Translations under genes and position numbers: made by a program
The notes under the pieces: generated by a model
The model's input: the letters and a program-made list of their open reading frames with translations, nothing else
Databases searched by the model: none
What the model was told of the DNA's origin: nothing
In this document: positions 6,113 through 40,664 of the stretch, one piece after another
Position numbering within the stretch: position 1 is the stretch's first letter
How the letters are laid out: the number at the start of each line of letters is the position of its first letter
Assembly (NCBI GenBank): GCA_003134045.1
Contig: PLAH01000103.1
Location: 1 to 56,994, forward strand
Reading direction: 5' to 3'
Length of the DNA stretch: 56,994 bases
From: Gammaproteobacteria bacterium
Lineage (GTDB): Bacteria; Pseudomonadota; Gammaproteobacteria; Steroidobacterales; Steroidobacteraceae

Positions 6113-7258
6113 CTAGGCTTCGTTCTGGCGCAGGATATGCGGACCCGCCGCTGCCACATCGGCGGTTCCCGTGAGCGCCAATGTGACGCGCAGTTCGTCG
6201 CGCAGAATGGCGAGTGCCCGCGCGACCCCCGCCTGGCCGCCGGCGGCCAGCGCAAACAGGAATGAGCGGCCGATCAGGCCCGCGCGCGCGCCCAGCGCCA
6301 GTCCCTTGGCGATGTCCTGACCGGAACGGATGCCGCCGTCGAACAACACCTCGCAGCGCCCGTCGACCGCGGCGGCCAATTCGGGCAGTACGGAAATCGT
6401 CGATGGCGCGCCATCGAGCTGGCGGCCGCCGTGATTGGAAACCACGATGGCGTCGGCGCCGGCGGCCAGCGCCAGGCGCGCATCCTCCGCCTCCAACACG
6501 CCCTTCAAGATCAATTTTCCGGGCCAGCGGCTGCGCACCCAGTCCACGTCCCGCCAATTGGCCGACGCATCGAATTGAGTCGCCGACCATTCGGCCAATG
6601 TGCGCAGTTCGCTCGAACCGCCGAGCCGGCCGGCCAGGTTGCCGAAGGTGCGCCGCTTGCCGAACAGCACGCTGCGCGTCCAGGCCGGCTTGGACACCAA
6701 GTCGAAGGCATTTCGCAGCGTCAGGCGCGGCGGAATGGTCAGCCCGTTGCGCCGGTCGCGGCGCCGTTCGCCGAGCACCTGCAGATCCAAGGTCAGCACC
6801 AGTGCCGAACAGCGGGCGGCGATGGCACGGTCGATGAGTTCCTGATTGAAGCCGCGGTCGCGCATCAGGTATTGCTGGAACCAAAACGGCTGGTTCGTCG
6901 CCGCGCGGACATCTTCGATCGAGCAGATCGACATGGTGCTCAGACAGAAGGGTATGCCGAACGCCGCGGCCGCCCGAGCGCCGGCGATTTCGCCGTCCGC
7001 GTGAAAGAAACCCGCCATTCCGGTGGGTGCGATGGCCAGGGGCATCGCCGCCGGCGAGCCCACCAGAGTGGTCGCGAGCGACACCGACGAGACGTCGACC
7101 ATGACTCGCTGACGGAACGATATCTCGTCGAGGTCCGCCGAGTTTCGTCGCAGCGTTCTCTCGTCGTAGGATCCGCCATCCGCGTAGTCGAAGATTGCGC
7201 GCGGAATACGCCGCCGCGCCAGAGCTTTCAAGTCGCCGATGCTTTGAATGATGCTCAT
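6113..7258 (-). CDS. FMN-dependent alpha-hydroxy-acid dehydrogenase (LldD/glycolate oxidase family)
   Basis: 381 residues, the usual size for a TIM-barrel FMN hydroxy-acid oxidase. Catalytic residues are in place: Tyr of FDYADGG, Tyr of WFQQYLMRDR, Asp of LTLDLQVLGERRRDRRNG, Lys of LILKG, His and Arg of SNHGGRQLD, and the FMN phosphate segment FDGGIRSGQD. Family members oxidise lactate, glycolate, mandelate and similar 2-hydroxy acids. It is the last gene of the gmaS-mgsABC operon, 29 bases after the ABM gene, an unusual companion. It could handle a 2-hydroxy acid produced from the amine pathway, or, more speculatively, an N-methyl amino acid. Confidence 0.88.
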   Translation of the reverse strand: MSIIQSIGDLKALARRRIPRAIFDYADGGSYDERTLRRNSADLDEISFRQRVMVDVSSVSLATTLVGSPAAMPLAIAPTGMAGFFHADGEIAGARAAAAFGIPFCLSTMSICSIEDVRAATNQPFWFQQYLMRDRGFNQELIDRAIAARCSALVLTLDLQVLGERRRDRRNGLTIPPRLTLRNAFDLVSKPAWTRSVLFGKRRTFGNLAGRLGGSSELRTLAEWSATQFDASANWRDVDWVRSRWPGKLILKGVLEAEDARLALAAGADAIVVSNHGGRQLDGAPSTISVLPELAAAVDGRCEVLFDGGIRSGQDIAKGLALGARAGLIGRSFLFALAAGGQAGVARALAILRDELRVTLALTGTADVAAAGPHILRQNEA

Positions 7259-7287
7259 GCGCCCAAGTTTACGCGGCCCGACCGGAT

Positions 7288-7590
7288 TTAGTCCTCCTCA
7301 CCCGCAACCGGACTGAAATGCTCCACCACCGCCGGTGTCGTGAACAACGGCCCGACGTACGCGCGCCACTCGGCGTAAGCCGGCGAGCCGCGAAACCCCA
7401 CCATGTGATCCTCGAGCGTCGCCCATTCCACGCGCAATGCGTAACGATTGGGCGTTTCGACCGAGCGCCGCAACTCGTGCGCCAGATAGCCCTTGCTTCT
7501 CGCGAGCACGGCGATCGCAGTGGGGAATACGGCTTCGAACTCAGCCGTACGGCTCGGGTCGATCGTGAGCACGGCGAGTTCCACGATCAC
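7288..7590 (-). CDS. Antibiotic biosynthesis monooxygenase (ABM) domain protein
   Basis: 100 residues, one ferredoxin-like ABM domain (N-terminal VIVELAVLTIDPSRTAEFE; later YALRVEWATLEDHMVGFRGS and PAYAEWRAYVGP). The GTG start overlaps the mgsC stop in a GTGA junction, so it is translated with mgsC. Family members are small dimeric proteins ranging from quinol monooxygenases to haem-degrading enzymes and simple stress proteins; no specific activity can be claimed here. Its tight coupling to N-methylglutamate synthase genes is notable. Confidence 0.75.
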   Translation of the reverse strand: MIVELAVLTIDPSRTAEFEAVFPTAIAVLARSKGYLAHELRRSVETPNRYALRVEWATLEDHMVGFRGSPAYAEWRAYVGPLFTTPAVVEHFSPVAGEED

Positions 7591-8933
7591 AGCGGCTGCT
7601 CCCGCCCGGGAATCCAGGACGTGCCGGCGAGGGGCACGCCCGCCATTGCCGCGGATTCCACCGTCAATGCCACCAAATCCTCTTTCTCCAAATGATGCAC
7701 GTCCTGTTTGCCGCAAGCACGTGCGATGGTGGTCAATTCCATGTTGAGGGTCTTCAAGTAATTCCTCAGCCGCTTCGCCCCGACTTCGGGCTCCAGCCGC
7801 AGCTCGAGTTCGGGATCCTGCGTCGTGACGCCGACCGGGCATTTGCCGGTGTGGCAATGGTGACAGAAGCCGGGTGCCGTACCAAGCCGTGCATAATCCT
7901 CGACCGCCGACAGATGTCTGCCCTGCGAGATGTAGGTGTCGCTGTTGCAACCCAGGGCCACCAGCACGCCCTGTCCGATCGCCACCGCGTCGGCGCCCAT
8001 CGCCAGCGCTTTCGCGACGTCGGCCCCGCTGCGAATGCCGCCGGAAATGACCAGCTGCACGATGCCGCGCATATTGAGATCGTCGAGCGCCTCGACCGCC
8101 TGACGAAGCGCCGCAAGCGTGGGGATGCCGACGTTTTCGATGAATACCGTCTGCGTCGCGGCGGTGCCGCCCTGCATGCCGTCGACGACCACCACGTCCG
8201 CGCCGGCGTGCACCGCCAGCTTCACGTCGTTGAACACCCGCGTCGCGCCCACCTTCACATAGATCGGCTTCTCCCAATCCGTGATCTCGCGCAGTTCCTT
8301 GATTTTGATCACCAGATCGTCGGGCCCCGTCCAATCCGGATGGCGCGACGCGGATCGCTGGTCGACGCCTTCGGGCAAGGTGCGCATGCGCGCGACCCGC
8401 GGATTGACTTTCTGACCCAGCAACATGCCGCCGCCGCCCGGTTTGGCACCCTGGCCGATCACGATTTCGATGGCATCTGCACGCCGCACGTCGTCGGGAT
8501 TGAAGCCATAGCGCGAGGGCAGGCATTGATACACCAGCATCTTCGACGCGGCGCGCTCCTCGGCCGTCATGCCGCCGTCGCCCGTGGTCGTCGACGTGCC
8601 CACCTCGGTCGCGGCGCGGCCGAGGGCCTCCTTGACTCGCGCGGACAGCGCCCCAAAGCTCATGCCGGCCACGGTGATGGGAATGGCGAGCTCGATGGGC
8701 TTGGACGCGAAGCGCGTGCCCAGCAGAGTCTTGGTCGCGCAGCGCTCGCGATAGCCTTCGAGCGGATAGCGCGACAGCGAGGCGGCGAGGAACAACAAGT
8801 CGTCGAAATTCGGTACCCGGCGCTTCGCCCCCAATCCGCGGATTTCGTACAAACCGGTCGCGGCCGCGCGCTGAATGTACTCGATGGTGTGGCGGTCGAA
8901 TCCCGCCGATTCTTCCAGTTGCAAGCCACTCAT
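7587..8933 (-). CDS. mgsC: N-methylglutamate synthase-type subunit C (FMN/FeS glutamate synthase domain; GlxD-like)
   Basis: 448 residues homologous to the FMN-binding, central part of glutamate synthase. Visible are the FMN-site segments GMSFGALSARVKEAL, TGDGGMTAEER, GQGAKPGGGGMLLGQKV and ISGGIRSGADVAKALAMGAD, and a cysteine cluster FCHHCHTGKCPVGV that fits an iron-sulfur site. In the NMG pathway this subunit catalyses the synthase half-reaction that makes N-methylglutamate from methylamine or gamma-glutamylmethylamide. Start chosen at ATG 8933, with AGGAG 10 bases upstream and 4 bases after the mgsB stop; an ATG at 8963 overlaps mgsB and has no ribosome site. The GlxBCD family also exists outside methylamine use, but gmaS next door supports the Mgs role. 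Confidence 0.85.
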   Translation of the reverse strand: MSGLQLEESAGFDRHTIEYIQRAAATGLYEIRGLGAKRRVPNFDDLLFLAASLSRYPLEGYRERCATKTLLGTRFASKPIELAIPITVAGMSFGALSARVKEALGRAATEVGTSTTTGDGGMTAEERAASKMLVYQCLPSRYGFNPDDVRRADAIEIVIGQGAKPGGGGMLLGQKVNPRVARMRTLPEGVDQRSASRHPDWTGPDDLVIKIKELREITDWEKPIYVKVGATRVFNDVKLAVHAGADVVVVDGMQGGTAATQTVFIENVGIPTLAALRQAVEALDDLNMRGIVQLVISGGIRSGADVAKALAMGADAVAIGQGVLVALGCNSDTYISQGRHLSAVEDYARLGTAPGFCHHCHTGKCPVGVTTQDPELELRLEPEVGAKRLRNYLKTLNMELTTIARACGKQDVHHLEKEDLVALTVESAAMAGVPLAGTSWIPGREQPL

Positions 8934-8937
8934 GCGA

Positions 8938-9645
8938 TCAGTACTCCTGGTTGGCATCGGCATGCCAGTGATACAGACTCTTGGCGGACGCGACCCGCTT
9001 GAACGAACCGGGATCGTCCGGCCGGCCGGCGGCGTTCAGCAGGCTCGAGACGGCCGCCACGTCGGTGTCCGTCATCGGCTCGAAGCGGGCATCGGCGCCG
9101 AGCGAGCGAACCTTGCCGCGGACGTAAATGACGGCTTCGTAGAGCGAGTCGCCGAGCGCATCCTCGGCATCGCCGCAGACGACGATGCGCCCCGCCTGCG
9201 CCATGAACGCGGAGAAGCTGCCCACGCTGCCGCCGACGACGATATCCGCGCCCTTCAAGGAAATGCCGCAGCGAAGCGATGCGTCGCCGTCGATCACCAG
9301 CAAACCGCCGTGCGCCGAGGCGCCGGCCGCCGTGGAGGCAAAGCCTTTGATGTGCACGCGTCCCGACATCATGTTCTCGGCCGCGCCCGGTCCCGCGTTG
9401 CCGTGAACGGTGACGGTCGCATGCTGGTTCATGCCGGCCACGTAGTAGCCGACGTGGCCATGGATATGGACGTCGAGTTCAGCATCCAAGCCGCAAGCGA
9501 TGGAGTGAGCGCCGTCGGGATGCACGACCGAGACCTGCGATATGCCATCGCTCACCGCGCGCTTGTGCAGATATAAATTCAGCTGCCGCAAGGTATCGCG
9601 CGCGAGATCGAATTCCCGCGCCGGGACAGGCTTCATATTTGCCAT
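8938..9645 (-). CDS. mgsB: N-methylglutamate synthase-type subunit B (GXGXG domain; GlxC-like)
   Basis: 235 residues matching the C-terminal right-handed beta-helix (GXGXG) domain of glutamate synthase: repeated Gly-rich turns such as HIHGHVGYYVAG, TVHGNAGPGAAENM, VHIKGFASTAAG and ISLKGADIVVGGSVGSF. In glutamate synthase this domain holds the other domains together; here it is a separate subunit, as in MgsB/GlxC. ATG at 9645 has a strong GGAGGA site 9 bases upstream and overlaps the end of mgsA by 13 bases, indicating translational coupling. Confidence 0.85.
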   Translation of the reverse strand: MANMKPVPAREFDLARDTLRQLNLYLHKRAVSDGISQVSVVHPDGAHSIACGLDAELDVHIHGHVGYYVAGMNQHATVTVHGNAGPGAAENMMSGRVHIKGFASTAAGASAHGGLLVIDGDASLRCGISLKGADIVVGGSVGSFSAFMAQAGRIVVCGDAEDALGDSLYEAVIYVRGKVRSLGADARFEPMTDTDVAAVSSLLNAAGRPDDPGSFKRVASAKSLYHWHADANQEY

Positions 9646-10529
9646 GAATAGATTTCCTCCGGCTTGGGCTCGAACAGCGTGGCGTGGCCGATATCGGGCA
9701 AATGCGCGAGCGAGCGGAACTCCGAGGCGATGGCGACGTAGTCGTCCGTTTCCGCGACCACCGCCGGCTTGCAGGCGAACGCATCGCGCACGATCAACAG
9801 TTCCTTGTCGGTCCCCATCAGAAACGTGAAGAATCCGTCCAGCTGGCTGAAGCCGCGCTCCACCGCTTTCTCCAGATCGTCGCCCTCGCGCAGGCGCCAT
9901 TCGAAAAAGCGGCACGCGGCCTCGGTGTCGTTGTCCGTTTCGAATTCAATTCCCAGCGGCTCCAAGTGTTTGCGCACCAGGTGGGGATTGGACAGCGAAC
10001 CGTTGTGGACCAGACAAAAGTCGCGGCCGGCGGTGAAGGGATGCGCGTGGGCGGGAGTCACCGCCGATTCGGTGGCCATGCGGGTGTGTCCCACGAGGTG
10101 CGTGCCGCGCAGCGAACCGAACTCATAGCGGCGCGCGATATCGGCGGGTGCACCCACGTCCTTGTACAGATCGATGGACTGACCCACCGAGAGAACCGCC
10201 ACCGTGGGGATGGTGCGCTTGAGCCAGGAAACGACCTGATCCGCGTCCGCGGCGGTGGTCAGCACGGCATGGTTGCCGTGCACCGCGATCTCATGCGCCT
10301 CGCTGAACTCGCGCGCAATCAGTCCCAGCAATTCCGACCAGTCCACCGCGCGGCCGCCGCTGTACAGGCTGATCTTGTGCTGCCGGTCCGACACGGGCGT
10401 GGTGTACACCGCGAGCCCGGCCGAGTCGGGGCCACGCTCCGTCATGCCGATGAGCATGGGCACCATCAGCGCGCCGAGTTGCTCGCGCAAGGCGGGCTTC
10501 TTGACCAATAGACCGACTATTCCACACAT
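9633..10529 (-). CDS. mgsA: N-methylglutamate synthase-type subunit A (class II glutamine amidotransferase; GlxB-like)
   Basis: 298 residues starting Met-Cys-Gly-Ile-Val, so the nucleophile Cys2 is exposed after Met removal, as in class II (Ntn) amidotransferases. Other motifs are TERGPDSAGLAVY, GHTRMATESAVTPAHAHPF and VHNGSLSN. In the NMG system this subunit releases the amine from a gamma-glutamyl donor and passes it to MgsC. AAGGAG lies 7 bases before the ATG at 10529. Gene order gmaS-mgsA-mgsB-mgsC is compact, with 22 bases between gmaS and mgsA. Confidence 0.87.
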   Translation of the reverse strand: MCGIVGLLVKKPALREQLGALMVPMLIGMTERGPDSAGLAVYTTPVSDRQHKISLYSGGRAVDWSELLGLIAREFSEAHEIAVHGNHAVLTTAADADQVVSWLKRTIPTVAVLSVGQSIDLYKDVGAPADIARRYEFGSLRGTHLVGHTRMATESAVTPAHAHPFTAGRDFCLVHNGSLSNPHLVRKHLEPLGIEFETDNDTEAACRFFEWRLREGDDLEKAVERGFSQLDGFFTFLMGTDKELLIVRDAFACKPAVVAETDDYVAIASEFRSLAHLPDIGHATLFEPKPEEIYSWQI

Positions 10530-10551
10530 GCGGCGGCTCCTTGAGGTTGCC

Positions 10552-11886
10552 CTAGAAAAATTCCAAGTAGCGTTTGGCTTCCCAATCCGAGACATGGCGC
10601 GAGTACTCGGTCCATTCCATGCGCTTCAAGCGAATGAATTCGCGCGCGAGGTCGGCCCCCAGGCCGTTGCGGATCACTTCGTCCTGTTCGAGCGCATCGA
10701 TGGCCTCATGCAAGGATTGCGGCAGCAGCTTGATGCCCTTCGCGGCCAGTTCCTCCATCGACAGCTGATACAGGTTGATGTTCTGGGCCGGGCCCGGATC
10801 CAGATCGCGGTCGATGCCGTCGAGACCCGCCGCGATCAAGGCCGCGGACACGAGATAGGGATTGCAGCCCGAATCCGGCAACCGGACTTCCAGGCGCCCG
10901 TGCGGCACGCGCACGCAGGCGGTGCGGTTGTTGTCGCCGTAGGCGATATACGCGGGAGCCCACGTGGCGCCCGACAGCGAGCGGCCGACGACCAGCCGCT
11001 TGTACGAATTGACGGTCGGCGCGGCGACGGCGCAAAAGGCGCGCGCATGCGCCAACACACCCGCCAGGAATTGATACGCCATGGTGGACAGGCCCATGCC
11101 GGATTTGTCGCCGGGGTCATGGAACGCATTCTTCTGGGCCGCAGAACCCACGGACACGTGGAAATGTGCGCCGCTGCCGGTGCGGTTCGAAAACGGCTTC
11201 GGCATGAACGTGGCGATCATGCCGTGCTTGTGCGCGATCTCGCTGGCCGCCATCTTCACGAACGTAAAGTTGTCGGCGGATTTGAGCGCGTTCGCGTAGG
11301 TGAAATTGATCTCGAACTGGCCGTTGCCGTCTTCGTGATCGATTTGATACACATCGATGCCGGCGGCGCGCAGTCCGCTCACCATCTCGTCGAGCGCCTC
11401 CCGCGTGCGGTACAGTCCCTTGTAGTCGTAGCACGGTTTGTCGAGATCGTCGGTCTGATCGGCCGGCCCCAAGCTGCCGTCCGCGCGCCGCGCGAGCAGC
11501 ATGAACTCCGGCTCGATGCCGGTGAACATCGTGAGTCCACGCTCGCTCATGCGCGCGATCTGCGTTTGCAGCGCCACCCGCGAACAGTAGGGATAGGGCT
11601 TCTTGTCGACCACGCCGTTGCAGATCAGCCGCGCATAGCCCGGCATCCAGGGAATATCCTGCAGGGTGGACAGATCGCCCACGGCCATATAGTCCGGACC
11701 TTCCGGGCCCATGCCGAAGCCCCACAACGCAAAGCCCGCGAAGCCCGCACCGTCCGTCAACACCATGTCCAAGTGTTCGACGGGTACCGCCTTGGCCTTC
11801 GCCGATCCGTGGATGTCGACGAACTGCGCCAAGATATAGCGGATCTTGCGCTGCTCGAAGAACTCCTTCGCTTGCTCCCGATTCAT
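10552..11886 (-). CDS. gmaS: Gamma-glutamylmethylamide synthetase-like ligase (glutamine synthetase superfamily, GlnT type)
   Basis: 444 residues, the size of GMAS/type III glutamine synthetase-like ligases. GS-fold motifs are visible: [11 protein letters not shown] (metal/glutamate site), [15 protein letters not shown], the ATP site [19 protein letters not shown], and [24 protein letters not shown] joins glutamate and methylamine using ATP. The start is ATG 11886 with GGGGAG 7 bases upstream. Linkage to mgsABC and to TMA- and DMA-oxidising genes supports methylamine rather than ammonia as substrate, but related ligases (glutamine synthetase III-like, gamma-glutamyl-polyamine or -ethylamide ligases) cannot be excluded from sequence alone. 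Confidence 0.85.
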
Positions 11887-12120
11887 TCCGACACTCCCCT
11901 GTGGCTGGCGCCGCATTCAATGACGATGTTCCCGCCGCACCGCGCCCCGGAATGGGAGAGGCCGCCGCAGGTTATAGTGCGCGTCGCCGAATCCGCGGCC
12001 GCCGGCGCACCGAAACGCAGTGACCGCGGACAGGCGATCTTTAGGGAAATGCGCGGCGGCGATCGGCGGTTAACAGTGCGGCTTGCATATGCGAATATAA
12101 GCACGAAATTTAACTGTGGA

Positions 12121-12134: not shown

Positions 12135-12144
12135 GTATTGTGCA

Positions 12145-12810
12145 ATGGCCCGGATGAAGCCGAAGCCCCAGCCCAAGGCATCGCCGCGGCCGCGCGCCAG
12201 AGCGGACGCCTCCGCGCCGCGCCTGGATCGCGGCGAGAGTCCCGCGATCGATCTGGGGCGCACCGCACGACGGCTGCGCGAAAGCCAGAATCTGACGCTG
12301 GCGGACGTCGCCGGCCGGGCGGATATCAGCAGCGCCATGCTCAGCCGGCTCGAGACCGGCCGAGTATCCCCGAGTCTCGAGACCATCGTCGCCCTGTCCA
12401 AAGCGCTCGGCGTCACGGCCTCCGTCCTGCTGCAGCGGGTGGGCGCGGACGATGGCGGCGCGCAACTGATCCGCGCGGGCGAAGGCCTCGAAACCGTGCG
12501 CAGCGGGACGCGGCGCGGCCATACCTATCACTTGCTGGCGGCCCAGCGCGGACCGCGCAAGGTCTTCGAACCTTTCCTCGTCACGTTGAACGACCGCAGC
12601 GAAGTATTTCCCGGGTTCCAGCATCCGGGCGTCGAATTCATTCACATGCTGTCGGGAATTCTGCACTACCGCCACGGCCGCCATTCCTACGTCCTCAAGC
12701 CGGGCGACACCCTGACTTTTCGCGGCGACATCGCGCATGGTCCCGAACGTCTGGAAAAGGTCCCCATTCGCATGCTGTCGATGATCATCTACGCGAACGA
12801 AGAAGAATAA
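12145..12810 (+). CDS. XRE-family transcriptional regulator with C-terminal cupin domain (paralogue 1)
   Basis: 221 residues. The first 35 or so are basic and proline-rich, followed by an XRE helix-turn-helix (TARRLRESQNLTLADVAG through MLSRLETGRVSPSLETIVAL). The second half is a cupin sensor (HPGVEFIHMLSGILHYRHG, YVLKPGDTLTFRGDIAHGPE). This architecture is known for regulators of amino-acid, polyamine and betaine use that bind a small ligand in the cupin. It is divergent from gmaS-mgsABC, so it probably controls that operon and itself. The protein is strikingly similar to the regulator at 15742-16383 across the cupin domain, so the two arose by duplication. A second ATG at 12154 is possible. 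Confidence 0.88.
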   Translation: MARMKPKPQPKASPRPRARADASAPRLDRGESPAIDLGRTARRLRESQNLTLADVAGRADISSAMLSRLETGRVSPSLETIVALSKALGVTASVLLQRVGADDGGAQLIRAGEGLETVRSGTRRGHTYHLLAAQRGPRKVFEPFLVTLNDRSEVFPGFQHPGVEFIHMLSGILHYRHGRHSYVLKPGDTLTFRGDIAHGPERLEKVPIRMLSMIIYANEEE

Positions 12811-12820
12811 GCCCGCCGCG

Positions 12821-13243
12821 GTGGTCATCGTATTCGCCGGCGATGCCACACTGCAGTTCGCCGCGGGCTATCTGGCGGATCGGTTTGGGCGAGCCCGCGT
12901 GCATCGGCTGGGCGGTCTTTGCCTGTGCGTCCTGCTGCCGCTGCTGCCGGTGATGATTCTCGTGCCCGGGCTGTGGGAGCTGTACCTCTATGTGCTCGGC
13001 GGAGTCGCAGGTTCCGTCTATACGCTCTCCATGGTCTCGAGCGGCGAGCGTTTCAGCGGTGCGGCTCTGCTGCGTGCTTCCGGGCTGATTGCCCTCACCT
13101 GGAATCTCGCCGCCAGCGTGGGTCCTGCGGCCACCGGCGTGGTCATGCAGCACATCGGCAGCTCGGCCATGACGGCGGTCCTCTGGGTCATGGCAGTCGG
13201 TTTCGTACTCGCCACCGGCGTCGAACGACGTGCCGCGGCCTGA
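12821..13243 (+). pseudogene. C-terminal half of an MFS transporter (probable remnant)
   Basis: An open frame of about 140 residues beginning at a GTG resembles only the second six-helix bundle of an MFS permease. It opens with GDATLQFAAGYLADRFGRAR, the loop motif that normally sits between helices 8 and 9 or in the middle of the protein, and continues with four or so hydrophobic helices. The N-terminal half that should precede it is absent; the upstream bases belong to the regulator gene, 10 bases away. A half-transporter is not expected to work, so this is probably the relic of a deletion that joined the regulator to the end of an old transporter gene. A genuine short gene cannot be excluded. 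Confidence 0.6.
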
Positions 13244-15741: not shown

Positions 15742-16383
15742 CTACTCGTCGTAAATGATGATCGACAGCATCCGGATCGGCACCTTGTCGAGGGTCTCCG
15801 GGCCATGCGCCACGTCGCCGCGAAAGCTCAAGGAGTCTCCGGGAGCCAGCGGGTAGCTATGACTGCCATGGCGATAGGTGAGGGACCCCGCCAGGATATA
15901 AATGAACTCGGTGCCGGGATGCTGAAAACCCGGAAACACCTCGCTCTTGTCGGTCAGCGTCACCAGGAAGGGCTCGAAGGATTTTCGCGGGCCGCGCTGG
16001 GCGGCGAGCAGATGGTAGGTGTGGCCGCGCCGCGTACCGCGCCGGACCACTTCGAGGCCCTGACCGGCGGGAACGCGCTGGGCGCCCTCTTCGTCGCCGC
16101 CCACGTCCTGCAACAGCAGCGCGGGCCTGACGCCGAGTGCGGCGGCCAGGGCAACCAAGGTCTCCAAGCTGGGCGTGACATGACCCGTTTCCAGGCGGCT
16201 CAACATGCCGGCGCTGATGCCGGCGGTGGTCGCGACGTCCGTCAGCGTGAGTCCCTGGCCCTCGCGTACGCGGCGCGCGACCGCGCCCAGTTGTCGCCCG
16301 ACATGGGGTACCGCGGCAGCCGCGCCGGCCCCATGGGCCGCGACCACACCCCCCGGCATCGACTTCTTGGTAAAACGCGCCAC
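15742..16383 (-). CDS. XRE-family transcriptional regulator with C-terminal cupin domain (paralogue 2)
   Basis: 213 residues: HTH at about residues 30-90 (MLSRLETGHVTPSLETLVAL), then a cupin sensor (HPGTEFIYILAGSLTYRHG, APGDSLSFRGDVAHGPE). Long stretches of the cupin match paralogue 1 residue for residue, for example GHTYHLLAAQRGPRK and SEVFPGFQHPG. The gene faces away from trimethylamine dehydrogenase; the 283-base gap between them holds a GCAA-N5-TTGC repeat. It likely controls the tmd operon. The two paralogues may respond to different methylamines. Confidence 0.88.
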   Translation of the reverse strand: MARFTKKSMPGGVVAAHGAGAAAAVPHVGRQLGAVARRVREGQGLTLTDVATTAGISAGMLSRLETGHVTPSLETLVALAAALGVRPALLLQDVGGDEEGAQRVPAGQGLEVVRRGTRRGHTYHLLAAQRGPRKSFEPFLVTLTDKSEVFPGFQHPGTEFIYILAGSLTYRHGSHSYPLAPGDSLSFRGDVAHGPETLDKVPIRMLSIIIYDE

Positions 16384-16660: not shown

Positions 16661-18859
<2,199 letters not shown>

Positions 18860-18861
18860 CC

Positions 18862-20982: not shown

Positions 20983-21809
20983 AAATTCTGGTGGCCGTCA
21001 AGCAAGTGGCGGCTCTCGACGAAGATTTCGCATTCCGCGACGACGGCCGGGACGTCGATGCGGATTTTCTCATCCGCGATCTGAACGAATGGGACGATTT
21101 CTCGCTCGAGGAAGCGGTCAAGATCAAAGAGACGGCGGCCGAGGGCGGAGCCGCTTCTTCAGTCGAAGTCATTGCCGTCTCGGTGGGACCGGAGGAGGTC
21201 GACGAGTCCTTGCGCAAGTGCCTGGCGAAGGGCGCCGACCGCGCGATTCGCGTCTGGGATGCCGCCATCGAGGGCTCGGACCCCATCGCCATCGCCCGCG
21301 TTGTAGCCGCCGTGGCGAGACGCGAAGCGCCCGACATGCTGTTCGCCGGCGTGCAGTCCTCCGATCAAAGCTTTGCCGCCACCGGCATCGCGACAGCCGC
21401 ATTTTTGGACTGGCCGCACGCCGCGGTGGTCAGCCAGCTGAATTACACGCCGGGCGCCCAGCGGGCTCTGTTCCGACGCGAGCTGGAGGGTGGCCTGTTG
21501 CACGAGATCGAGATTCAATGCCCGGCGGTGCTGACCGTTCAATTGGGCATCAATACACCCCGTTATGCCTCCCTGCGCAGCATCAAGCAGGCGGCGGCGA
21601 AGCCGATAGAGATCCTGTCCTTGGCCAATATCGGATTGAACGCGGCCGACGTGGGCGAGTCCGGTTCCGCGTCGCGCGTGCGGCGAATGTATATTCCCGA
21701 CAAGGCGCGGGCCGAACTCATCGACGGCGATGTGGCGGCGCAAGCACAGCGTCTCGCCGCCATCATTCGCGAATTCAAGGGCGCGGGAACTGGCGGAGGC
21801 GCGGCATGA
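20979..21809 (+). CDS. etfB: Electron transfer flavoprotein subunit beta
   Basis: 276 residues. ETF beta features are MKILVAVKQVAALDEDF at the N-terminus, NEWDDFSLEEAVKIKE, DPIAIARVVAAVA, and the signature region LFAGVQSSDQSFAATGIATA. The beta subunit holds AMP and pairs with the alpha subunit to carry one electron at a time from a dehydrogenase to the membrane. The start ATG overlaps the upstream stop (ATGA), and its stop overlaps etfA in the same way. The natural electron donor in this operon is trimethylamine dehydrogenase. Confidence 0.93.
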   Translation: MKILVAVKQVAALDEDFAFRDDGRDVDADFLIRDLNEWDDFSLEEAVKIKETAAEGGAASSVEVIAVSVGPEEVDESLRKCLAKGADRAIRVWDAAIEGSDPIAIARVVAAVARREAPDMLFAGVQSSDQSFAATGIATAAFLDWPHAAVVSQLNYTPGAQRALFRRELEGGLLHEIEIQCPAVLTVQLGINTPRYASLRSIKQAAAKPIEILSLANIGLNAADVGESGSASRVRRMYIPDKARAELIDGDVAAQAQRLAAIIREFKGAGTGGGAA

Positions 21810-22762
21810 GCGGCTTGCTGGTGATTGCCGAACAACGCCGCGGCGAATTGCGTCCCGTGTCGCTCGAACTCGTGACCGCCGCCCAGAAGCTGCGTCGCGG
21901 CGCCGAGGAGGTCGGCGTGGCCGTCATCGGAGCCGCGCCCGAGAAGCTCGTTGCCCCGCTGAGCGTCGCGGGCGTCGATGAAATCGTCACCGTCAAGGTT
22001 GCCGCGCCGGAATTCGATCCGGACACGTTCGAAGCGGCCGTGAGCGCCCTGATCGCGCAGCGCAAGCCCGACGTCGTACTGGTCGCGCACAGCGTCGATT
22101 CCTTCGGTTATGCGGCGGCCTTGGCCGCCAAGCTGGGGTTGGGATTCGCGACCGATGTCTTCGACGCGCAGCGCATCGATGGCGAGCTGGTGGCGACGCG
22201 CGGCGGCTACGGCCAGAAGGTCAACGTGGAAGTCGATTTCCCCGGCCGCAGCACCGTGCTGCTCGCCGTGCGCGGCAACGTGTTCAAGCCTCCCGAACAG
22301 CCTGCCTCGCCGCGCGTGGCCGCGTTCGAGATTCCAGCCATCTCGAGCCGGGCGACGGGACGCGAGTTCGTCGAGCTGGCCGCGGGCGACGACGTGGACA
22401 TGACGGGCGCCGAATTCATCCTGACCATCGGGCGCGGCATCGGCGAAGAATCGAACGTCGCGCAATTCCGCGAGCTCGCGGATGCGATCGGCGCCACTCT
22501 CGGCTGTTCCCGGCCGATCGCGGATGCCGGCTGGCTGCCGAAGAGCCGCCAAGTCGGACAGTCCGGCAAGACGGCCAGCGCCTGCAAGCTGTACATCGCC
22601 ATGGGCGTCTCGGGAGCGATCCAGCATTTGGCCGGCATGAAGCACGTGAGTACCATCGTTGCCGTGAACTCGGACGCCGAAGCGTCCATCTTCGGTGTGG
22701 CCACGTATGGCATCGTCGGAGACATCTTCGAAGTTGCCGAGGAGCTGCGGCGTTTGTTTTGA
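21806..22762 (+). CDS. etfA: Electron transfer flavoprotein subunit alpha
   Basis: 318 residues. The C-terminal FAD domain shows LTIGRGIGEESNVAQFRELA, LGCSRPIADAGWLPKSRQVGQSGK, YIAMGVSGAIQHLAGM and AVNSDAEASIFGVATYGIVGD, all classic ETF alpha FAD-binding segments. ATG is coupled to etfB by a 4-base overlap. Order tmd, membrane oxidoreductase, etfB, etfA forms one transcription unit; a 91-base gap follows before the permease. Confidence 0.94.
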   Translation: MSGLLVIAEQRRGELRPVSLELVTAAQKLRRGAEEVGVAVIGAAPEKLVAPLSVAGVDEIVTVKVAAPEFDPDTFEAAVSALIAQRKPDVVLVAHSVDSFGYAAALAAKLGLGFATDVFDAQRIDGELVATRGGYGQKVNVEVDFPGRSTVLLAVRGNVFKPPEQPASPRVAAFEIPAISSRATGREFVELAAGDDVDMTGAEFILTIGRGIGEESNVAQFRELADAIGATLGCSRPIADAGWLPKSRQVGQSGKTASACKLYIAMGVSGAIQHLAGMKHVSTIVAVNSDAEASIFGVATYGIVGDIFEVAEELRRLF

Positions 22763-22853
22763 CGTGCTGCGCGCAGAATGCAACACGGGGTGGCGTACGA
22801 GGCGGCCCCGTCCGATGGTTTGACGGCAATGGGATGACACGGGAGAGGACTGC

Positions 22854-24539
22854 ATGAACGCTACTACGGAGGAGACCGCCTTGTCGGCCGCAGCAACACC
22901 CGCAGGCCTGGAGCGCGGCATCGACTGGACCGGCGCCTTCTGGGTGGCGAGCGGCGTACCGCCGCTGGTGCTGTTCTCGATCGGCGCCGTCGCGGCCACG
23001 GTGGGCAAACTGTCGTGGCTGATCTGGATCGCCTCGATCGGCCTCGGATTCATCCAATCGTTCACCTACGCGGAAATCGCCGGGTTGTTTCCCAACAAAT
23101 CGGGGGGCACCTCGGTATACGGCGCGATCGCCTGGGTCAGGTACAGCAAAATCATCGCCCCCATCTCGGTGTGGTGCAATTGGTTCGCCTGGTCCCCCGT
23201 CCAGGCCACGGGATCCGCCTTCGCCGCCGGCTACATACTGAACGCGTTGTTTGCGCCGGACGCCGTCGTCAACACCTGGCAATTCACGCTGCTCGACCTC
23301 GGCGCGATCAAGAGCGGGCTCACGTTGCGCATCAATGCCGTGTTCCTGCTGGGCGCCGTGCTCATGTTCACGGTCAAGGCCGTTCAGGATGGCGGCATCT
23401 TGCGATCGGCCAACACCACGAAGATTCTCGGCATCGCGGCGATGATTCCTCTGATCCTCATCGGCGTCGTGCCCCTCATCACGGGCGACATCGCGCAGGC
23501 CAATTTCTTTCCTCTGGTACCCTTGGCGCACGACACCGCGGGGCGCGTCGTCGACGGTACCTGGAACATGGCCGGCATCACGGTGCTGGCCGGCGGCATG
23601 TTTCTCGCCGCCTGGTCCACGTATGGTTTCGAAACGGCGGTGTGCTACACCTCGGAATTGAAGAACCCCAAGACCGACACGTTCAAGGCGATTTTCTATT
23701 CGGGGCTGCTCTGCGTCGTGGTGTACACCTTGGTGCCGTTCGCATTTCAGGGGTTTCTAGGTTTGGGCACGCTGGTAACGCCCGCGGTGGTCGATGCCGC
23801 CGGCACTGTGACCACACCGGCGGTCTACACGGGCATGCTCGCTCCGGACATTTACAACGGCATGGGCGTCGCCGCCGTCATGGCCAACATGGTGCATGCA
23901 GGCCGCCTGGTCGGCGCCGTGGTGGTGATCATGCTGGTCCTCGCCCTGGTGCTGTCGCTCATCACCTCGATGGCCGGATCGTCCCGCACGCTGTATCAGG
24001 CGTCGGTCGACGGTTGGCTGCCCAAGTACCTCTCGAAGGTCAACGAGCACCACGCACCGTCCAATGCCATGCTCACCGATCTGTGCTTCAATCTGCTGCT
24101 GCTGCTGATGTCGGACTCGGTGTTCGTGATCGGCGCCGCCAACGTGGGCTACATGATCTTCAATTTTCTGAATCTGAACGCGGGCTGGATACACCGCCTC
24201 GACCGCCCGCTGCAGGAACGCCCGTGGCGCGCGCCCACGTGGGTACTGGCGGTCGGCGCCGCCTTGTCCTTCGTCAATCTGGCCTTCATGGGCTTCGGGG
24301 CGGATGTCTATGGCGTGGGCACCTTGAGTACCGGCTTGGTGTTCTGTGCGCTCATCATTCCGGTTTTCATCTACCGGCACTACGTACAGGACAAGGGGCA
24401 CTTTCCGGACGAGATGAAGGAAGATCTGGGCCACAACAGCGGCGCATCCGCCATCAAGCGCGCCGGCATCTGGCCGTTCGTGGTTCTAGGCCTGGGCGTG
24501 GCGGTGGTGGCGGTCACGCATCGGCTCGCGGTGTACTGA
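22854..24539 (+). CDS. APC-superfamily permease, putative methylated-amine or amino-acid importer
   Basis: 561 residues with about 12 hydrophobic helices. The first helix begins GAFWVASGVPPLVLFSIGA and the protein has the conserved YAEIAGLFPNKSGGTSVYG segment of APC permeases. GGAGAGGA lies 6 bases before the ATG. The stop overlaps the next gene's ATG by one base (TGATG), tying it to the dimethylamine monooxygenase genes, so TMA, DMA or a related amine is the likely cargo; this is inference from location. The upstream gap 22763-22853 probably holds its promoter. Confidence 0.82.
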   Translation: MNATTEETALSAAATPAGLERGIDWTGAFWVASGVPPLVLFSIGAVAATVGKLSWLIWIASIGLGFIQSFTYAEIAGLFPNKSGGTSVYGAIAWVRYSKIIAPISVWCNWFAWSPVQATGSAFAAGYILNALFAPDAVVNTWQFTLLDLGAIKSGLTLRINAVFLLGAVLMFTVKAVQDGGILRSANTTKILGIAAMIPLILIGVVPLITGDIAQANFFPLVPLAHDTAGRVVDGTWNMAGITVLAGGMFLAAWSTYGFETAVCYTSELKNPKTDTFKAIFYSGLLCVVVYTLVPFAFQGFLGLGTLVTPAVVDAAGTVTTPAVYTGMLAPDIYNGMGVAAVMANMVHAGRLVGAVVVIMLVLALVLSLITSMAGSSRTLYQASVDGWLPKYLSKVNEHHAPSNAMLTDLCFNLLLLLMSDSVFVIGAANVGYMIFNFLNLNAGWIHRLDRPLQERPWRAPTWVLAVGAALSFVNLAFMGFGADVYGVGTLSTGLVFCALIIPVFIYRHYVQDKGHFPDEMKEDLGHNSGASAIKRAGIWPFVVLGLGVAVVAVTHRLAVY

Positions 24540-25189
24540 TGCTGGTCTCCGGCATCAAGAGCAAGCCGGTGTATTCGCCGCTGCGCGCCGACGTGGGCGG
24601 CCGCGATCATGTGATGCTGGGCTGCGGTTTGGGCGGCGTCGCGCTGCTGCGCGTGCTGCAGGAACTCGAACAGAGCTCGCCCGCCGCGCTGCGGCAGACC
24701 AACGTACTGTTCGTGCCCGGCGCGGCCATCCGGGATAGCGGCACCTCGAACGCGGCATCGAACGATGCATCCGAGACGCTCGACCGCTTGCGGCGCACGG
24801 AGCTGGCCGGCTTGCGCCTGTTCGGCGACACCAGCCGATTGCTGGCGGAATTCCGCTCCCTCCTCGAGCAGTCCTTGATGGGCACCCGCGTCTACGTCGC
24901 GGGCCCCGAAAGTTTCATCGGCCTCGCGATGCGGATCGCCCGCGAATTCAATCTCAACAAAGACGAGATCCGCGCCGAAGAGCTGGGCACGCGGGCAAGG
25001 CGCGTCTATTGCGTGCACTGTCGCACCACGGCCGAAGACGTGCGCACCAACATCGTCCGCTGCGCCGGCTGCCACCGCTGGCTGCTGGTCCGGGACCATT
25101 ATTCGCGGCGCCTCGCCGCCTACATGGGTGTGATGGCGGATGCGGAGGCGCCGGGCGAGCTGCCGCCGATTCGGGAGGTGTATACGTGA
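24539..25189 (+). CDS. dmmA: Dimethylamine monooxygenase small subunit, zinc-ribbon type (DmmA family)
   Basis: 216 residues. A Rossmann-like or ferredoxin-reductase-like body is followed by a CxxC...CxxC zinc-ribbon (Cys158, Cys161, Cys175 and Cys178) close to the C-terminus, then a short YSRRLAAYMGVM tail. This matches the DmmA family found with the reductase and DUF3445 components of dimethylamine monooxygenase. The enzyme uses NAD(P)H and O2 to turn DMA into methylamine and formaldehyde. The start ATG overlaps the permease stop; the stop overlaps dmmB (GTGA). Subunit letters differ among reports, so the symbol follows common database use. Confidence 0.8.
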   Translation: MLVSGIKSKPVYSPLRADVGGRDHVMLGCGLGGVALLRVLQELEQSSPAALRQTNVLFVPGAAIRDSGTSNAASNDASETLDRLRRTELAGLRLFGDTSRLLAEFRSLLEQSLMGTRVYVAGPESFIGLAMRIAREFNLNKDEIRAEELGTRARRVYCVHCRTTAEDVRTNIVRCAGCHRWLLVRDHYSRRLAAYMGVMADAEAPGELPPIREVYT

Positions 25190-26148
25190 ACGAGGCACAA
25201 ACGCTCGCCGTCGAAGTCTCGGCCATCGAGCAGGTCACCCCGCTCATCAAGCATTTCACGCTGGCCGCGGCCGACGGCGCAGCGCTGCCGGCATTCTCAG
25301 GCGGCTCGCATGTCATCGTCGTCATGCGCGGCGCGCTCCGGGCGCACCGCAATCCGTATTCGTTGCTGAGTTCGCCGCATCGGCTCGACACCTACGAAAT
25401 CGGCGTGCGCCGCATGGAGGAATCGCGCGGCGGCTCGCACTTCATGCACGACAAGGTGCGGGTCGGCAGCCGCCTGGAAATCGCGCATCCGGTGAATCTG
25501 TTCGGGCTCGACAAGATCGCGCGCAAGCATGTGCTGATCGCCGGCGGGATCGGCATCACGCCCTTCCTCGCACAACTCGAGGATCTGCACGATGGCGCGG
25601 CGCCTTACGAGCTGCATTACTCGGTTCGATCGCCCGAGCATGCCGCCTTCCTCGGCCGCTTGCGCGAGCGCGAAGGCGACCGGCTGCACATGTATTACGA
25701 CAGCGAAGATCAATCCATCGATTTCGACGGGCTGTTGTCGAATCAGCCGCTCGGTACGCACGTCTACGTGTGCGGCCCTGCCGGCCTCATCAACCGCGTC
25801 ATCGACACCGCCCGGCGCTGCGGCTGGTCGGACAGCCACATTCACTGGGAGCAGTTCAGCGCTCCGCCCACGGGCGATGCGTTCGACGTGTACCTGGCCC
25901 GCGCCAAGTTGACGGTGCACGTTCCGCCGGACCGGAGCCTGCTCGAGAGCATCGAGGCCGCCGGCGTCGAGGTTCCGTATCTATGCCGCGGCGGTGTCTG
26001 CGGTTTCTGCCAGACCCGGGTGCTCGAACTCGACGGCGAGCTCGTGCACAACGACCATTTTTTATCGGAAGCCGACAAGGCTCGAGCCAAGAGCATCATG
26101 CCCTGCGTCTCGCGTGCGCACTGCAGGACGCTCGTGCTCGACCTCTAG
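25186..26148 (+). CDS. dmmB: Dimethylamine monooxygenase reductase subunit (PDR/VanB family)
   Basis: 320 residues from a GTG coupled to dmmA. Three domains in order: FMN/flavin barrel (AHRNPYSLLSSPHRL), NAD domain (HVLIAGGIGITPFLAQL, THVYVCGPAGLI) and a C-terminal plant-type 2Fe-2S ferredoxin with ligands Cys267, Cys272, Cys275 and Cys307. Phthalate-dioxygenase-reductase-like proteins pass electrons from NAD(P)H through FMN and 2Fe-2S to an oxygenase, here the DUF3445 subunit encoded next. Located in the cytoplasm. Confidence 0.9.
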   Translation: MNEAQTLAVEVSAIEQVTPLIKHFTLAAADGAALPAFSGGSHVIVVMRGALRAHRNPYSLLSSPHRLDTYEIGVRRMEESRGGSHFMHDKVRVGSRLEIAHPVNLFGLDKIARKHVLIAGGIGITPFLAQLEDLHDGAAPYELHYSVRSPEHAAFLGRLREREGDRLHMYYDSEDQSIDFDGLLSNQPLGTHVYVCGPAGLINRVIDTARRCGWSDSHIHWEQFSAPPTGDAFDVYLARAKLTVHVPPDRSLLESIEAAGVEVPYLCRGGVCGFCQTRVLELDGELVHNDHFLSEADKARAKSIMPCVSRAHCRTLVLDL

Positions 26149-26178
26149 CCCTGCAGGCGTACGCCCGAGGAGAATAGA

Positions 26179-27222
26179 ATGAGTGCCATATTCAAACCTG
26201 ACGAGACGTTCCGGGACGATTTCAGCTACCGCAACAGCCCGGCTGCCATCCGCCGTTTTCCGATGCCGTTTCCCGAAGACCGCTACATGTATTCGGTGAA
26301 TATCGAGCCGCATTTGCCGGGCGCGAAAGGCTCGGTGACGGAGTTCGCCTTCGACGTGGACGAACACTACGTCGCCGAGTGCCGCGAGCGCGAGCTGGTG
26401 CTCGCTGCCGAGCCGCTGCGCTTCCAGGCGCTGCCGCACATGATGAGCGCGCAGTGGGATTGTCTCGAACTCCTCATGGAATCGCTGGCGCGCGACTACC
26501 CGGCACACTTTTCGCTCGCCAAGCAAGGCAATCGCTGGCACTGGATCAACCGCCCGTTGGGGCTGGATCAACAGTTCATTTTTGGCGATGCCGACACCCT
26601 GCCGCGCCAACCGCTCGACTACATAGGCCGCCAGGCCCAAGGCGACTTCGTGGTGATGGATCAGCGTGAGGACGATCTATGGACCGAAGCGGGCATGGTG
26701 ACCGCGCAGGCGGACTGGTCGTTGGATTTCGACATCGGCATGACATTCAAGGAGTGGCATGGGCCCGTACCTCTCGCGCACGAGATGAACGTATTCGACC
26801 GCGCGCTGAAGTACCTGCTGAACCTGCGCCTGGGGCAGCCGGTGCGGCGGCTCAATTGGACCATGACGGTGCATCCGCGGCTCGACACGTCGCCCGAGAC
26901 CTATCCCCAATGGGGACCCGACCGCGCCCGCGTTACTGCGCAGAACGCGGGCGATCTCGTCAACTTGCGGGTCGAATTGCAAGGGCTATGGCGCCTGCCG
27001 CGCAGCAATGCCGTGCTGTTCGGCATTCGCTGCTATCTCATCAGCATGAACGAACTCGCAACCGTACCCAAATGGGCGCGCCGCATGCATCGCGTACTCG
27101 AGGATTTGCACCCGGCTCTCGTCGACTACAAAGGCCTGACGCGCTATCGCGACGCGGTGGTCGAGTGGCTCGCGCCTTACGACGACGGCAGCCCCACCAC
27201 ACCCGGGACCGCGCCCGAATAA
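26179..27222 (+). CDS. dmmC: Dimethylamine monooxygenase oxygenase subunit (DUF3445, haem-dependent oxidative N-demethylase family)
   Basis: 347 residues. DUF3445 hallmarks are visible: RFPMPFPEDRYMYSVNIEP near the N-terminus, the central VMDQREDDLWTEAGM, and the C-terminal LVNLRVELQGLWRLPRS followed by VLFGIRCYLISMNEL. Members bind haem and oxidatively remove N-methyl groups. GAGGAG stands 6 bases before the ATG. Together with dmmA and dmmB it would convert DMA to methylamine, which the gmaS-mgs genes can consume. Confidence 0.87.
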   Translation: MSAIFKPDETFRDDFSYRNSPAAIRRFPMPFPEDRYMYSVNIEPHLPGAKGSVTEFAFDVDEHYVAECRERELVLAAEPLRFQALPHMMSAQWDCLELLMESLARDYPAHFSLAKQGNRWHWINRPLGLDQQFIFGDADTLPRQPLDYIGRQAQGDFVVMDQREDDLWTEAGMVTAQADWSLDFDIGMTFKEWHGPVPLAHEMNVFDRALKYLLNLRLGQPVRRLNWTMTVHPRLDTSPETYPQWGPDRARVTAQNAGDLVNLRVELQGLWRLPRSNAVLFGIRCYLISMNELATVPKWARRMHRVLEDLHPALVDYKGLTRYRDAVVEWLAPYDDGSPTTPGTAPE

Positions 27223-27266
27223 TTGCCGGGCACGAGCCCACCCTTACAAGAACGCTGGAGAAATAC

Positions 27267-28400
27267 ATGGCACTCAGTTGGCGCTACACGGTTTTGGCGG
27301 AGCGGCATCGCGCCCTCGGCTCGAAGCTGGAAGATTGGAACGGCATGGGCACGGCATGGACTTACGCGAAGGACGTGGCGCAGGATCACGTCGCGATCCG
27401 CACCAAAGCCGGACTGATGGACGTCTCGGGTTTGAAGAAGCTGCACATCGTCGGGCCGCATGCCGCCGCGGTGCTGAACTACACGACCACCCGCGACGTG
27501 GCCAAGATCTATCCGGGCAAATCCGCCTATGCCTGCATGCTGAACGAGGCCGGACACTTCATCGAAGATTGCATTCTGTATCGCACCGCACCCAACGCGT
27601 GGATGGTCGTACACGGCAGCGGCGCCGGTCATGAAACCTTGACCGCCCACGTCGTCGGCCGCAATGCCGCGCTCATCGTCGATGAAGACCTGCACGATCT
27701 GTCCTTGCAGGGGCCGCTGGCGGTGGATTTCCTGGCCAAGCACGTCCCCGGCATCCGCGACCTCAAGTATTTCCATCATCTGCCCACCACCCTGTTCGGG
27801 CGGCCCGTGCTGATTTCACGTACCGGCTACACGGGCGAGCGCGGCTACGAGATATTCTGCAAGGGCGAGGACGCAGGACTCATCTGGGACACGATCTTGA
27901 GCGAAGGCAAGCCCATGGGAATCATCCCCGCCTGCTTTACGACGCTGGACTACCTGCGGGTCGAGAGTTCGCTGCTGTTCTATCCCTACGACATGTCGCA
28001 GATGTATCCCTTCGACACGGATCCTCCGGGCGACAGCCTCTGGGAGCTCGGACTCGACTTCACGGTGAGCCCCGGCAAGACGGATTTTCGCGGCGCCGAG
28101 GCGCACGGCCGGCTCAAGGGCAAGGAACGCTTCAAGATTTTCGGGCTGCTCATCGAGGGCGACGCGCCGGCCGACATGGGCAACCTGGTTTACGCAGGCG
28201 GCAAGAAAGTCGGCGTCATCACCTGCGCCATGGTGTCGACGCTTACGGCCAAGTCCATGGCCATCGCGCGCCTCGACGTGCCGGTCGCGGTGCACGGAAC
28301 CCGCCTGGAGATTCGCGGCAAGAACGTCAAGGGTCCCGCCACCGCGCATACGCTGCCGTTCGACGACGTGGACAAAAAGAAGCGTACCGCCGTGGGATGA
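27267..28400 (+). CDS. GcvT-like aminomethyltransferase, putative folate-dependent C1 acceptor
   Basis: 377 residues, the length of glycine-cleavage T-protein. Motifs include AGLMDVSGLKKLHIVGPHAA, LNEAGHFIEDCILYR, SLQGPLAV, RTGYTGERGYEIFCKGED and a C-terminal beta-barrel (DTDPPGDSLWELGLDFTV). T-proteins use tetrahydrofolate to accept one-carbon units; homologues occur beside dimethylamine monooxygenase and DMSP demethylase genes. Here it probably captures the formaldehyde-level carbon released from TMA or DMA as methylene-THF. It is 44 bases after dmmC and ends the operon, 7 bases before a convergent gene. Confidence 0.83.
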   Translation: MALSWRYTVLAERHRALGSKLEDWNGMGTAWTYAKDVAQDHVAIRTKAGLMDVSGLKKLHIVGPHAAAVLNYTTTRDVAKIYPGKSAYACMLNEAGHFIEDCILYRTAPNAWMVVHGSGAGHETLTAHVVGRNAALIVDEDLHDLSLQGPLAVDFLAKHVPGIRDLKYFHHLPTTLFGRPVLISRTGYTGERGYEIFCKGEDAGLIWDTILSEGKPMGIIPACFTTLDYLRVESSLLFYPYDMSQMYPFDTDPPGDSLWELGLDFTVSPGKTDFRGAEAHGRLKGKERFKIFGLLIEGDAPADMGNLVYAGGKKVGVITCAMVSTLTAKSMAIARLDVPVAVHGTRLEIRGKNVKGPATAHTLPFDDVDKKKRTAVG

Positions 28401-40661: not shown

Positions 40662-40664
40662 TCC

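Follow-up and report, generated by a model that had tools for sequence, protein, structure and literature searches.

A trimethylamine catabolic gene island in a Steroidobacteraceae genome, with N-methylglutamate dehydrogenase probably encoded on another contig

Gene content of the island and predicted route

How does a bacterium dispose of N-methylglutamate when its gene island for trimethylamine (TMA) degradation contains no N-methylglutamate dehydrogenase (Mgd, encoded by mgdABCD)? The question is raised by a Steroidobacteraceae locus in the window, that is, the whole 56,994-nucleotide stretch of DNA analyzed here (contig C72, positions 1 to 56994), which belongs to a 5.5-Mb metagenome-assembled genome (MAG) with a completeness of 96.8% and a contamination of 6.3%. 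Between positions 6113 and 28400, an initial annotation had named TMA dehydrogenase (TMADH), electron transfer flavoprotein (ETF), a membrane quinone reductase, dimethylamine (DMA) monooxygenase, a folate-dependent acceptor, gmaS, mgsABC, two regulators, and a permease. All of these were confirmed by domain and family profile scans and by PDB matches, and this gene content was observed directly. We consider it likely that the island serves aerobic TMA catabolism, with the last step carried out by an unlinked Mgd encoded on contig C101 after a linked mgd was lost in a rearrangement. This would probably make the pathway a complete and fairly ordinary one, albeit rearranged relative to that of close relatives.

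The island consists of two halves. The minus strand carries gmaS, mgsA, mgsB, and mgsC, followed by genes for an ABM protein and a flavin mononucleotide (FMN)-dependent hydroxyacid dehydrogenase. The plus strand, from position 16667, carries genes for TMADH, an Fe-S/CCG protein, EtfB, EtfA, an APC permease, DmmA, DmmB, DmmC, and DmmD. The pathway genes are as follows:

7587..8963 (alternative start 8933), minus strand: mgsC, N-methylglutamate synthase FMN/glutamate-synthase-type subunit (PF01645, E 2.2e-93)
8938..9645, minus strand: mgsB, GXGXG subunit (PF01493; gene order kept in relatives)
9633..10529, minus strand: mgsA, class II glutamine amidotransferase subunit, start MCGIVG read from the sequence (PF13522/PF13537)
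10552..11886, minus strand: gmaS, gamma-glutamylmethylamide synthetase (TIGR03105, 643 bits versus a cutoff of 469.6; closest PDB entry 9qur, E 1.2e-191)
16667..18859, plus strand: TMADH (end-to-end match to PDB 1djn/2tmd, 1427 bits)
18862..20982, plus strand: membrane Fe-S/CCG (HdrD-like) protein, probable ETF:quinone oxidoreductase (PF02754, Fer4; also adjoins TMADH in Azoarcus and Paracoccus aminovorans)
20979..21809, plus strand: etfB (PF01012)
21806..22762, plus strand: etfA (PF00766, PF01012)
22854..24539, plus strand: APC permease, assigned to the trimethylamine N-oxide permease family (NF053774, 806.6 bits versus a cutoff of 690)
24539..25189, plus strand: dmmA (open reading frame [ORF]; 38% tblastn match to the annotated DmmA of Paracoccus sp. 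MA)
25186..26148, plus strand: dmmB, reductase with NAD-binding and 2Fe-2S domains (PF22290, PF00111)
26179..27222, plus strand: dmmC, heme-dependent oxidative N-demethylase, i.e., dimethylamine monooxygenase (PF11927, E 2.4e-69; PDB 5lte, E 1.2e-148)
27222..28400, plus strand: dmmD, GcvT-type folate-binding protein (PF01571, PF08669)

Judged by sequence, the previously assigned route from TMA through DMA, methylamine, and gamma-glutamylmethylamide to N-methylglutamate holds. The TMADH scored 1427 bits against the solved TMA dehydrogenase 1djn, compared to 530 bits against histamine dehydrogenase 6de6. Its alignment with 1djn, counted by eye, conserves Cys30, which we take to be the FMN-binding residue, the cysteines that presumably bind the 4Fe-4S cluster, and Tyr60, Trp264, and Trp355, presumably the substrate bowl. 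GmaS scored 640 bits against 9qur, named glutamate--methylamine ligase in the PDB, 359.5 bits against 7cql, named type III glutamate--ammonia ligase, and 275.4 bits against the best entry named glutamine synthetase. Read by eye, it has an alanine in its GAGFAGFA loop and lacks the ammonia-binding aspartate, an absence described as a GmaS trait in PMC7948447. The gene is predicted to encode gamma-glutamylmethylamide synthetase. The three Mgs subunits (amidotransferase, GXGXG, and FMN/glutamate-synthase type) are encoded by separate, adjacent genes together with gmaS. MgsC shares up to 92% identity with copies in other gmaS-mgs clusters; a search of genome contigs found its nearest loci in MAG GL140_1_concoct_66 (92%) and Peristeroidobacter soli (85%), which hints at a Steroidobacter-like gammaproteobacterium. 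DmmC matched a single PDB sequence, the heme N-demethylase 5lte, and the ORF at 24539 to 25189 completes dmmABCD, so that all four genes lie together. DmmD is a probable folate-linked formaldehyde acceptor, according to PMC5520151 and PMC4543880. The island had been said to lack TMA monooxygenase (tmm); no FMO-like match was found anywhere in the window genome at an E value of ≤1e-5, on which ground a tmm elsewhere in it was rejected.

From these identities we infer the substrates and the electron flow. TMADH would convert TMA to DMA and formaldehyde, and its electrons would pass via EtfBA to the membrane-bound Hdr-like quinone reductase. The Fe-S protein and EtfBA also follow TMADH in Azoarcus KH32C and Paracoccus aminovorans, which supports the proposed electron path. 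DmmABC would turn DMA and O2 into methylamine, and DmmD would probably load formaldehyde onto tetrahydrofolate. GmaS and MgsABC would then convert methylamine via gamma-glutamylmethylamide to N-methylglutamate, from which the MgdABCD of C101, of soxBDAG type and encoded beside a possibly TmaR-like AraC regulator, would return glutamate and yield methylene-tetrahydrofolate.

A candidate N-methylglutamate dehydrogenase on contig C101

The initial annotation had described the pathway as apparently lacking N-methylglutamate dehydrogenase, with mgdABCD absent from the island. This stands for the island, on which no sarcosine-oxidase-type mgd was found, but not for the genome: a profile search of the genome yielded two soxA-like matches over cutoff, on contigs C27 and C101, and two SoxG matches. 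True absence of Mgd was rejected, since C101 carries an operon that is a strong candidate for mgdABCD, together with a regulator of the type seen next to mgd elsewhere, and the gap is most likely closed. In this soxBDAG-type operon, soxB, soxA, and soxG were identified by profile and the soxD-like (mgdB-like) ORF was read by eye; an AraC/DJ-1 regulator gene is divergently oriented. Both the C101 and the C27 copies match identical NCBIfam models. Because the C101 copy is known to NCBIfam only as "sarcosine oxidase subunit," an Mgd of this kind is invisible to annotation alone.

Against the Paracoccus sp. MA copies, which adjoin mgsABC-gmaS, identity is 75% for C101 MgdA and 58% for C101 MgdC; against the C27 copy of the window genome it is 53% and 47%, respectively. 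The neighbor of the C27 copy is a gene resembling that for dimethylglycine dehydrogenase, with DAO and GcvT domains, and this copy, too, has an AraC/DJ-1 regulator. The C101 regulator shares 61% identity with its counterpart in Methylobacterium sp. DM1, 47% with that of Rhizobium beringeri, 46% with that of Paracoccus MA, and 40% with that of Pseudosulfitobacter, each encoded beside an mgd-like operon, and 39% with the C27 regulator. In Ruegeria pomeroyi, as described in PMC13390433, the gene for the AraC regulator TmaR immediately precedes mgdABCD; the protein switches on dmm, gmaS-mgs, and mgd in response to a product of methylamine. The C101 operon most likely encodes the unlinked MgdABCD predicted to perform the last step of the pathway. 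Downstream of it (L021, 6240 to 7010) lies a 256-amino-acid ORF whose DAO domain comprises the C-terminal half only.

Subfamily placement of the C101 enzyme

For the survey, 398 Pseudomonadota genomes were searched with C101 MgdA and window MgsC at an E value of ≤1e-150, with up to four candidates scored per genome; "no mgsC" means none at this threshold. Linkage was defined as a distance within 25 kb of mgsC, and the window genome itself was excluded from hit counts. Among the 33 MgdA matches of at least 71% identity, 24 were linked, 4 came from genomes with mgsC elsewhere, and 5 came from genomes without it, compared to no linkage at all for the 48 matches of 54 to 70% identity. mgsC was present in 29 of the 34 genomes carrying the C101 subfamily versus 44 of 398 overall (own genome counted), statistics that ignore kinship and include several linked genomes of one genus. 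Linkage to gmaS/mgs is thus common among Mgd without defining it, as the four matches with mgsC elsewhere illustrate.

A maximum-likelihood tree of 77 proteins, including 21 of the 24 linked matches, 8 of the 9 other matches of at least 71% identity, and 20 of the 48 lower-identity matches, recovered C101 in a clade of 45 rows (support 100/99). Within it, a subgroup of 13 rows (93/96) unites C101 with ten mgs-linked copies, a copy whose genome carries mgsC at another place, and that of genome G079. At eight columns that separate the groups, C101 agrees with the linked group in seven, G079 in six, G138 in five, C27 in two, and the Comamonadaceae copies at loci L043 and L049 in two. Exceptions aside, these comparisons place C101 MgdA with the mgs-linked copies rather than with unlinked paralogues, and this placement was observed directly.

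Several observations weigh against reading C101 as the Mgd of this pathway. Its sister in the tree is the mgsC-less G079 (99/90). Linkage and clade coincide incompletely: the 45-row clade takes in 7 of the 20 unlinked low-identity rows and leaves out the mgs-linked copies of the two Comamonadaceae. The 20 kb of C101 read contain no purU, folD, mgs, or gmaS. G079 and G138, which belong to the same family and gave no mgsC match, carry C101-type genes near genes for MttB-type methyltransferases, a hint of another N-methyl substrate. A role of Mgd in homarine breakdown, cited in PMC13390433, could account for mgd without mgs; together with the C101-type genes of mgsC-less genomes, it implies that the subfamily may use other N-methyl compounds.

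These points bear on the alternative that C101 encodes a sarcosine oxidase or another enzyme for N-methyl amino acids, with N-methylglutamate being a dead end or handled by promiscuous C27 or C101 enzymes. The shared sarcosine-oxidase models, the MttB neighbors, and the AraC/DJ-1 regulator present at C27 too speak for it. However, C27 already resembles a dimethylglycine/sarcosine locus, and identity, tree, regulator, and the separating columns all group C101 with mgs-linked genes, although at these columns two mgs-linked Comamonadaceae copies agree less often than the mgs-less G079. We regard this alternative as improbable.

The C101-type mgd-like operons of G079 and G138 were located at L162, 7870 to 14678, and L163, 7216 to 13218, respectively, both near MttB-family genes.

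Linked mgd in relatives and apparent rearrangement of the window locus

The segment between the two halves of the island holds the following features, none of which except the regulators had been listed for the island:

12145..12810, plus strand: XRE-type regulator, divergent from gmaS (83% identity to the G182 regulator divergent from mgdA)
12821..13243, plus strand: MFS transporter fragment, profile positions 39 to 164 of 347 (PF07690)
13440..15672 (start approximate), plus strand: pyrroloquinoline quinone (PQQ)-dependent methanol/ethanol-type dehydrogenase (TIGR03075, 516.9 bits versus a cutoff of 480.05)
15742..16383, minus strand: XRE and cupin domain regulator, divergent from TMADH (PF01381, PF07883)

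The two regulators share 73% identity. The MFS fragment, missing both profile ends, sits at the probable rearrangement site.

Four mgsC-bearing relatives of the same family were found besides the window genome: G182, of the same genus, G097, G130, and G161. In each of the four, an mgdA of another subfamily (43 to 45% identical to that of C101) lies on the mgsC contig, some 7 kb from mgsC; an identical search of the window genome for this type returned only C101 and C27. Outside the family but within the order, four genomes with mgsC were examined: an mgdA-like gene lies no more than a few kilobases from mgsC in G023 and G090 and is missing from the mgsC contig in G129 and G148.

Gene order in these relatives was likewise observed directly. 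In G161, regulator, mgd, gmaS-mgsABC, TMADH, Fe-S protein, EtfBA, permease, DmmABC, and DmmD genes form one run. G182 has a block of adjacent genes made up of the PQQ gene (75% identical to that of the window and adjoining the regulator), the XRE regulator gene, mgd, and gmaS-mgsABC. In the window, one regulator is directly divergent from TMADH, and gmaS-mgsABC is inverted and lies beyond the PQQ gene, behind the second regulator. The linked mgd, of the subfamily still found beside gmaS in relatives, was apparently lost from the window locus by rearrangement; we infer the direction of this loss from gene order. One Mgd subfamily has probably replaced another in the window genome, which would make it a within-family case of such a replacement.

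A different explanation is that the MAG misleads, in that assembly or binning dropped a linked mgd or C101 derives from a contaminant. The contamination estimate is compatible with this, as is the size of 5.5 Mb versus 2.9 and 3.1 Mb in two genomes of the same genus. The rearranged junctions, however, are internal to a single contig of no less than 57 kb, and C101 shares the GC content (64.5%) and tetranucleotide usage (r = 0.73 to 0.80) of the window, like other stretches of the genome. The tetranucleotide argument is weak because G079 reaches 0.64 to 0.76 against the same stretches. Taken together, an artifact appears unlikely, more so than an enzyme of other substrate at C101.

Outside the Pseudomonadota, plasmid NZ_CP083583.1 of the cyanobacterium Kovacikia minuta encodes, at 70268 to 80084, relatives of window MgsC (79%) and G182 MgdA (79%) within 10 kb. 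This is a likely case of horizontal transfer of the pathway.

Genes downstream of mgsC and possible other routes for N-methylglutamate

Two further genes follow mgsC:

6113..7258, minus strand: FMN-dependent 2-hydroxyacid dehydrogenase/oxidase of the LldD/glycolate-oxidase family (PF01070, E 1.9e-137; NF008398 over cutoff)
7288..7590, minus strand: ABM-domain small protein of 100 amino acids, start overlapping the mgsC stop (PF03992 on the containing ORF; sequence read)

mgsABC is present as annotated, but 6113 to 7258 encodes no Mgs subunit and mgsC ends at 7587. Since both genes lie on the mgsC strand, with the ABM gene overlapping mgsC, at a place from which mgd is gone, they might have replaced Mgd and oxidize N-methylglutamate. 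We consider this very unlikely. Among 236 loci longer than 3 kb, many of which end at contig ends, a full-length match to either protein occurred only in the window's own stretch, ruling the pair out as a conserved part of the pathway, and 81 of 81 plasmid records with an ABM match were below 60% identity. The dehydrogenase also retains an intact SNHGGRQLD stretch, which we take to be the active-site stretch expected of a 2-hydroxyacid oxidase. The tail looks like a private neighbor of the window locus. A more radical form of the replacement reading, in which C101 is not Mgd and the mgsC-coupled pair is a new, nonhomologous N-methylglutamate-oxidizing system that took over after loss of the linked mgd, deserves equally little credence.

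Several Burkholderiales loci (L026, 687 to 14984; L025, 7393 to 16365; L076, 316 to 16885; and others) carry gmaS-mgsABC without mgd in the stretch, near genes for N-formylglutamate deformylase and a flavin adenine dinucleotide (FAD) oxidoreductase of the DAO family; several also have EtfAB and HutD. The L026 locus has an ETF:quinone oxidoreductase gene and the Hydrogenophaga locus L076 has DmmABCD. Among 80 mgs loci, the FAD oxidoreductase occurred in 14 (9 with the deformylase), linked mgd in 35, both in none, and neither in 31, many of which are truncated. These loci suggest an alternative oxidation of N-methylglutamate via N-formylglutamate to formate; a literature search found no text naming the two compounds together, and the loci may merit more attention than the window finding itself. 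A Paraburkholderia-type FAD oxidoreductase was rejected for the window genome: the seven matches at an E value of ≤1e-10 were 25 to 31% identical, except for one of 40% over 80 residues.

Occurrence of the TMADH and DMA monooxygenase combination

The initial annotation had singled out the pairing of TMADH with an O2-dependent DMA enzyme. At an E value of ≤1e-200 and with two candidates scored per genome, TMADH was found in 1 of the 398 Pseudomonadota genomes, namely, the window's own. Hence, the combination could not be judged by frequency, and plasmids and relatives were used instead. DmmC was detected at an E value of ≤1e-20 in 6 of 16 genomes (those of the window, G182, G097, G130, G161, and L076). 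At this threshold it was not found in the mgsC-less same-family genomes G058, G079, and G138, in the mgsC-bearing genomes G148, G023, G129, and G090 of other families, or in the genomes of L046, L040, and L043. Both TMADH and DmmC are encoded in G161, G130, Paraburkholderia phymatum pBPHY01, and Cupriavidus oxalaticus. The L046 genome has TMADH but no DmmC, and no DmmC was seen near TMADH in the stretches read of Azoarcus KH32C and Paracoccus aminovorans. The combination does differ from the Ruegeria tmm/tdm/dmm route, but its recurrence means that it is not peculiar to the window genome, and a recurring route in several Pseudomonadota is indicated. A literature search, with most subscription journals outside its coverage, found no text pairing "trimethylamine dehydrogenase" with "dimethylamine monooxygenase" or "Steroidobacteraceae" with "trimethylamine."

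Comparison with known systems

The TMA genes of Ruegeria pomeroyi, as given in PMC13390433 and PMC5520151, are tmm, tdm, dmmDABC, gmaS-mgsABC, and tmaR-mgdABCD. The window genome has in common with it dmmABCD, gmaS-mgsABC, and an AraC-type regulator adjoining mgdABCD. It differs in having TMADH with ETF instead of tmm/tdm, mgd on another contig, and XRE regulators adjoining gmaS and TMADH. Methyloversatilis universalis FAM5 has gmaS-mgsABC-mgdABCD (PMC5023235), and the window gmaS-mgsABC belongs to the close group of FAM5, with 83% MgsC identity to the Methyloversatilis MAG locus L051. At L051, mgd is linked but belongs to the other subfamily, a type that the search of the window genome did not find.

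The contiguous locus of G161 (contig C63) shares the XRE regulator, gmaS, mgsABC, TMADH, Fe-S protein, EtfBA, permease, and DmmABCD at 56 to 84% identity. It differs in its linked mgd and single orientation, and the 25 kb read hold no match to the PQQ gene, ABM protein, or FMN dehydrogenase. Plasmid pBPHY01 of P. phymatum and a plasmid of C. oxalaticus share TMADH-FeS-EtfBA with DmmABC nearby; their modules differ by a gap of about 1.6 kb between the Fe-S and EtfB genes, a position filled by an annotated additional gene in Azoarcus and Paracoccus aminovorans. On pBPHY01, mgd adjoins gmaS-mgsABC, unlike in the window genome. The window island would be a rearranged member of a known pathway, its Mgd unlinked and probably replaced, with C101 presumably acting on N-methylglutamate. 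A methylamine pathway can seem incomplete when the gene for its final step lies apart from the others and is recognized by sarcosine-oxidase models alone.

Other features of the window

Directly after dmmD, on the opposite strand, positions 28408 to 29823 encode a Peptidase C13 (legumain-like) protein. Further downstream, at 39489 to 43129, a saccharopine-dehydrogenase-like gene, an FAD-linked oxidase gene, and an HglS-like gene (2-oxoadipate dioxygenase/decarboxylase, Pfam) are consecutive, a row possibly involved in lysine breakdown to 2-oxoglutarate.

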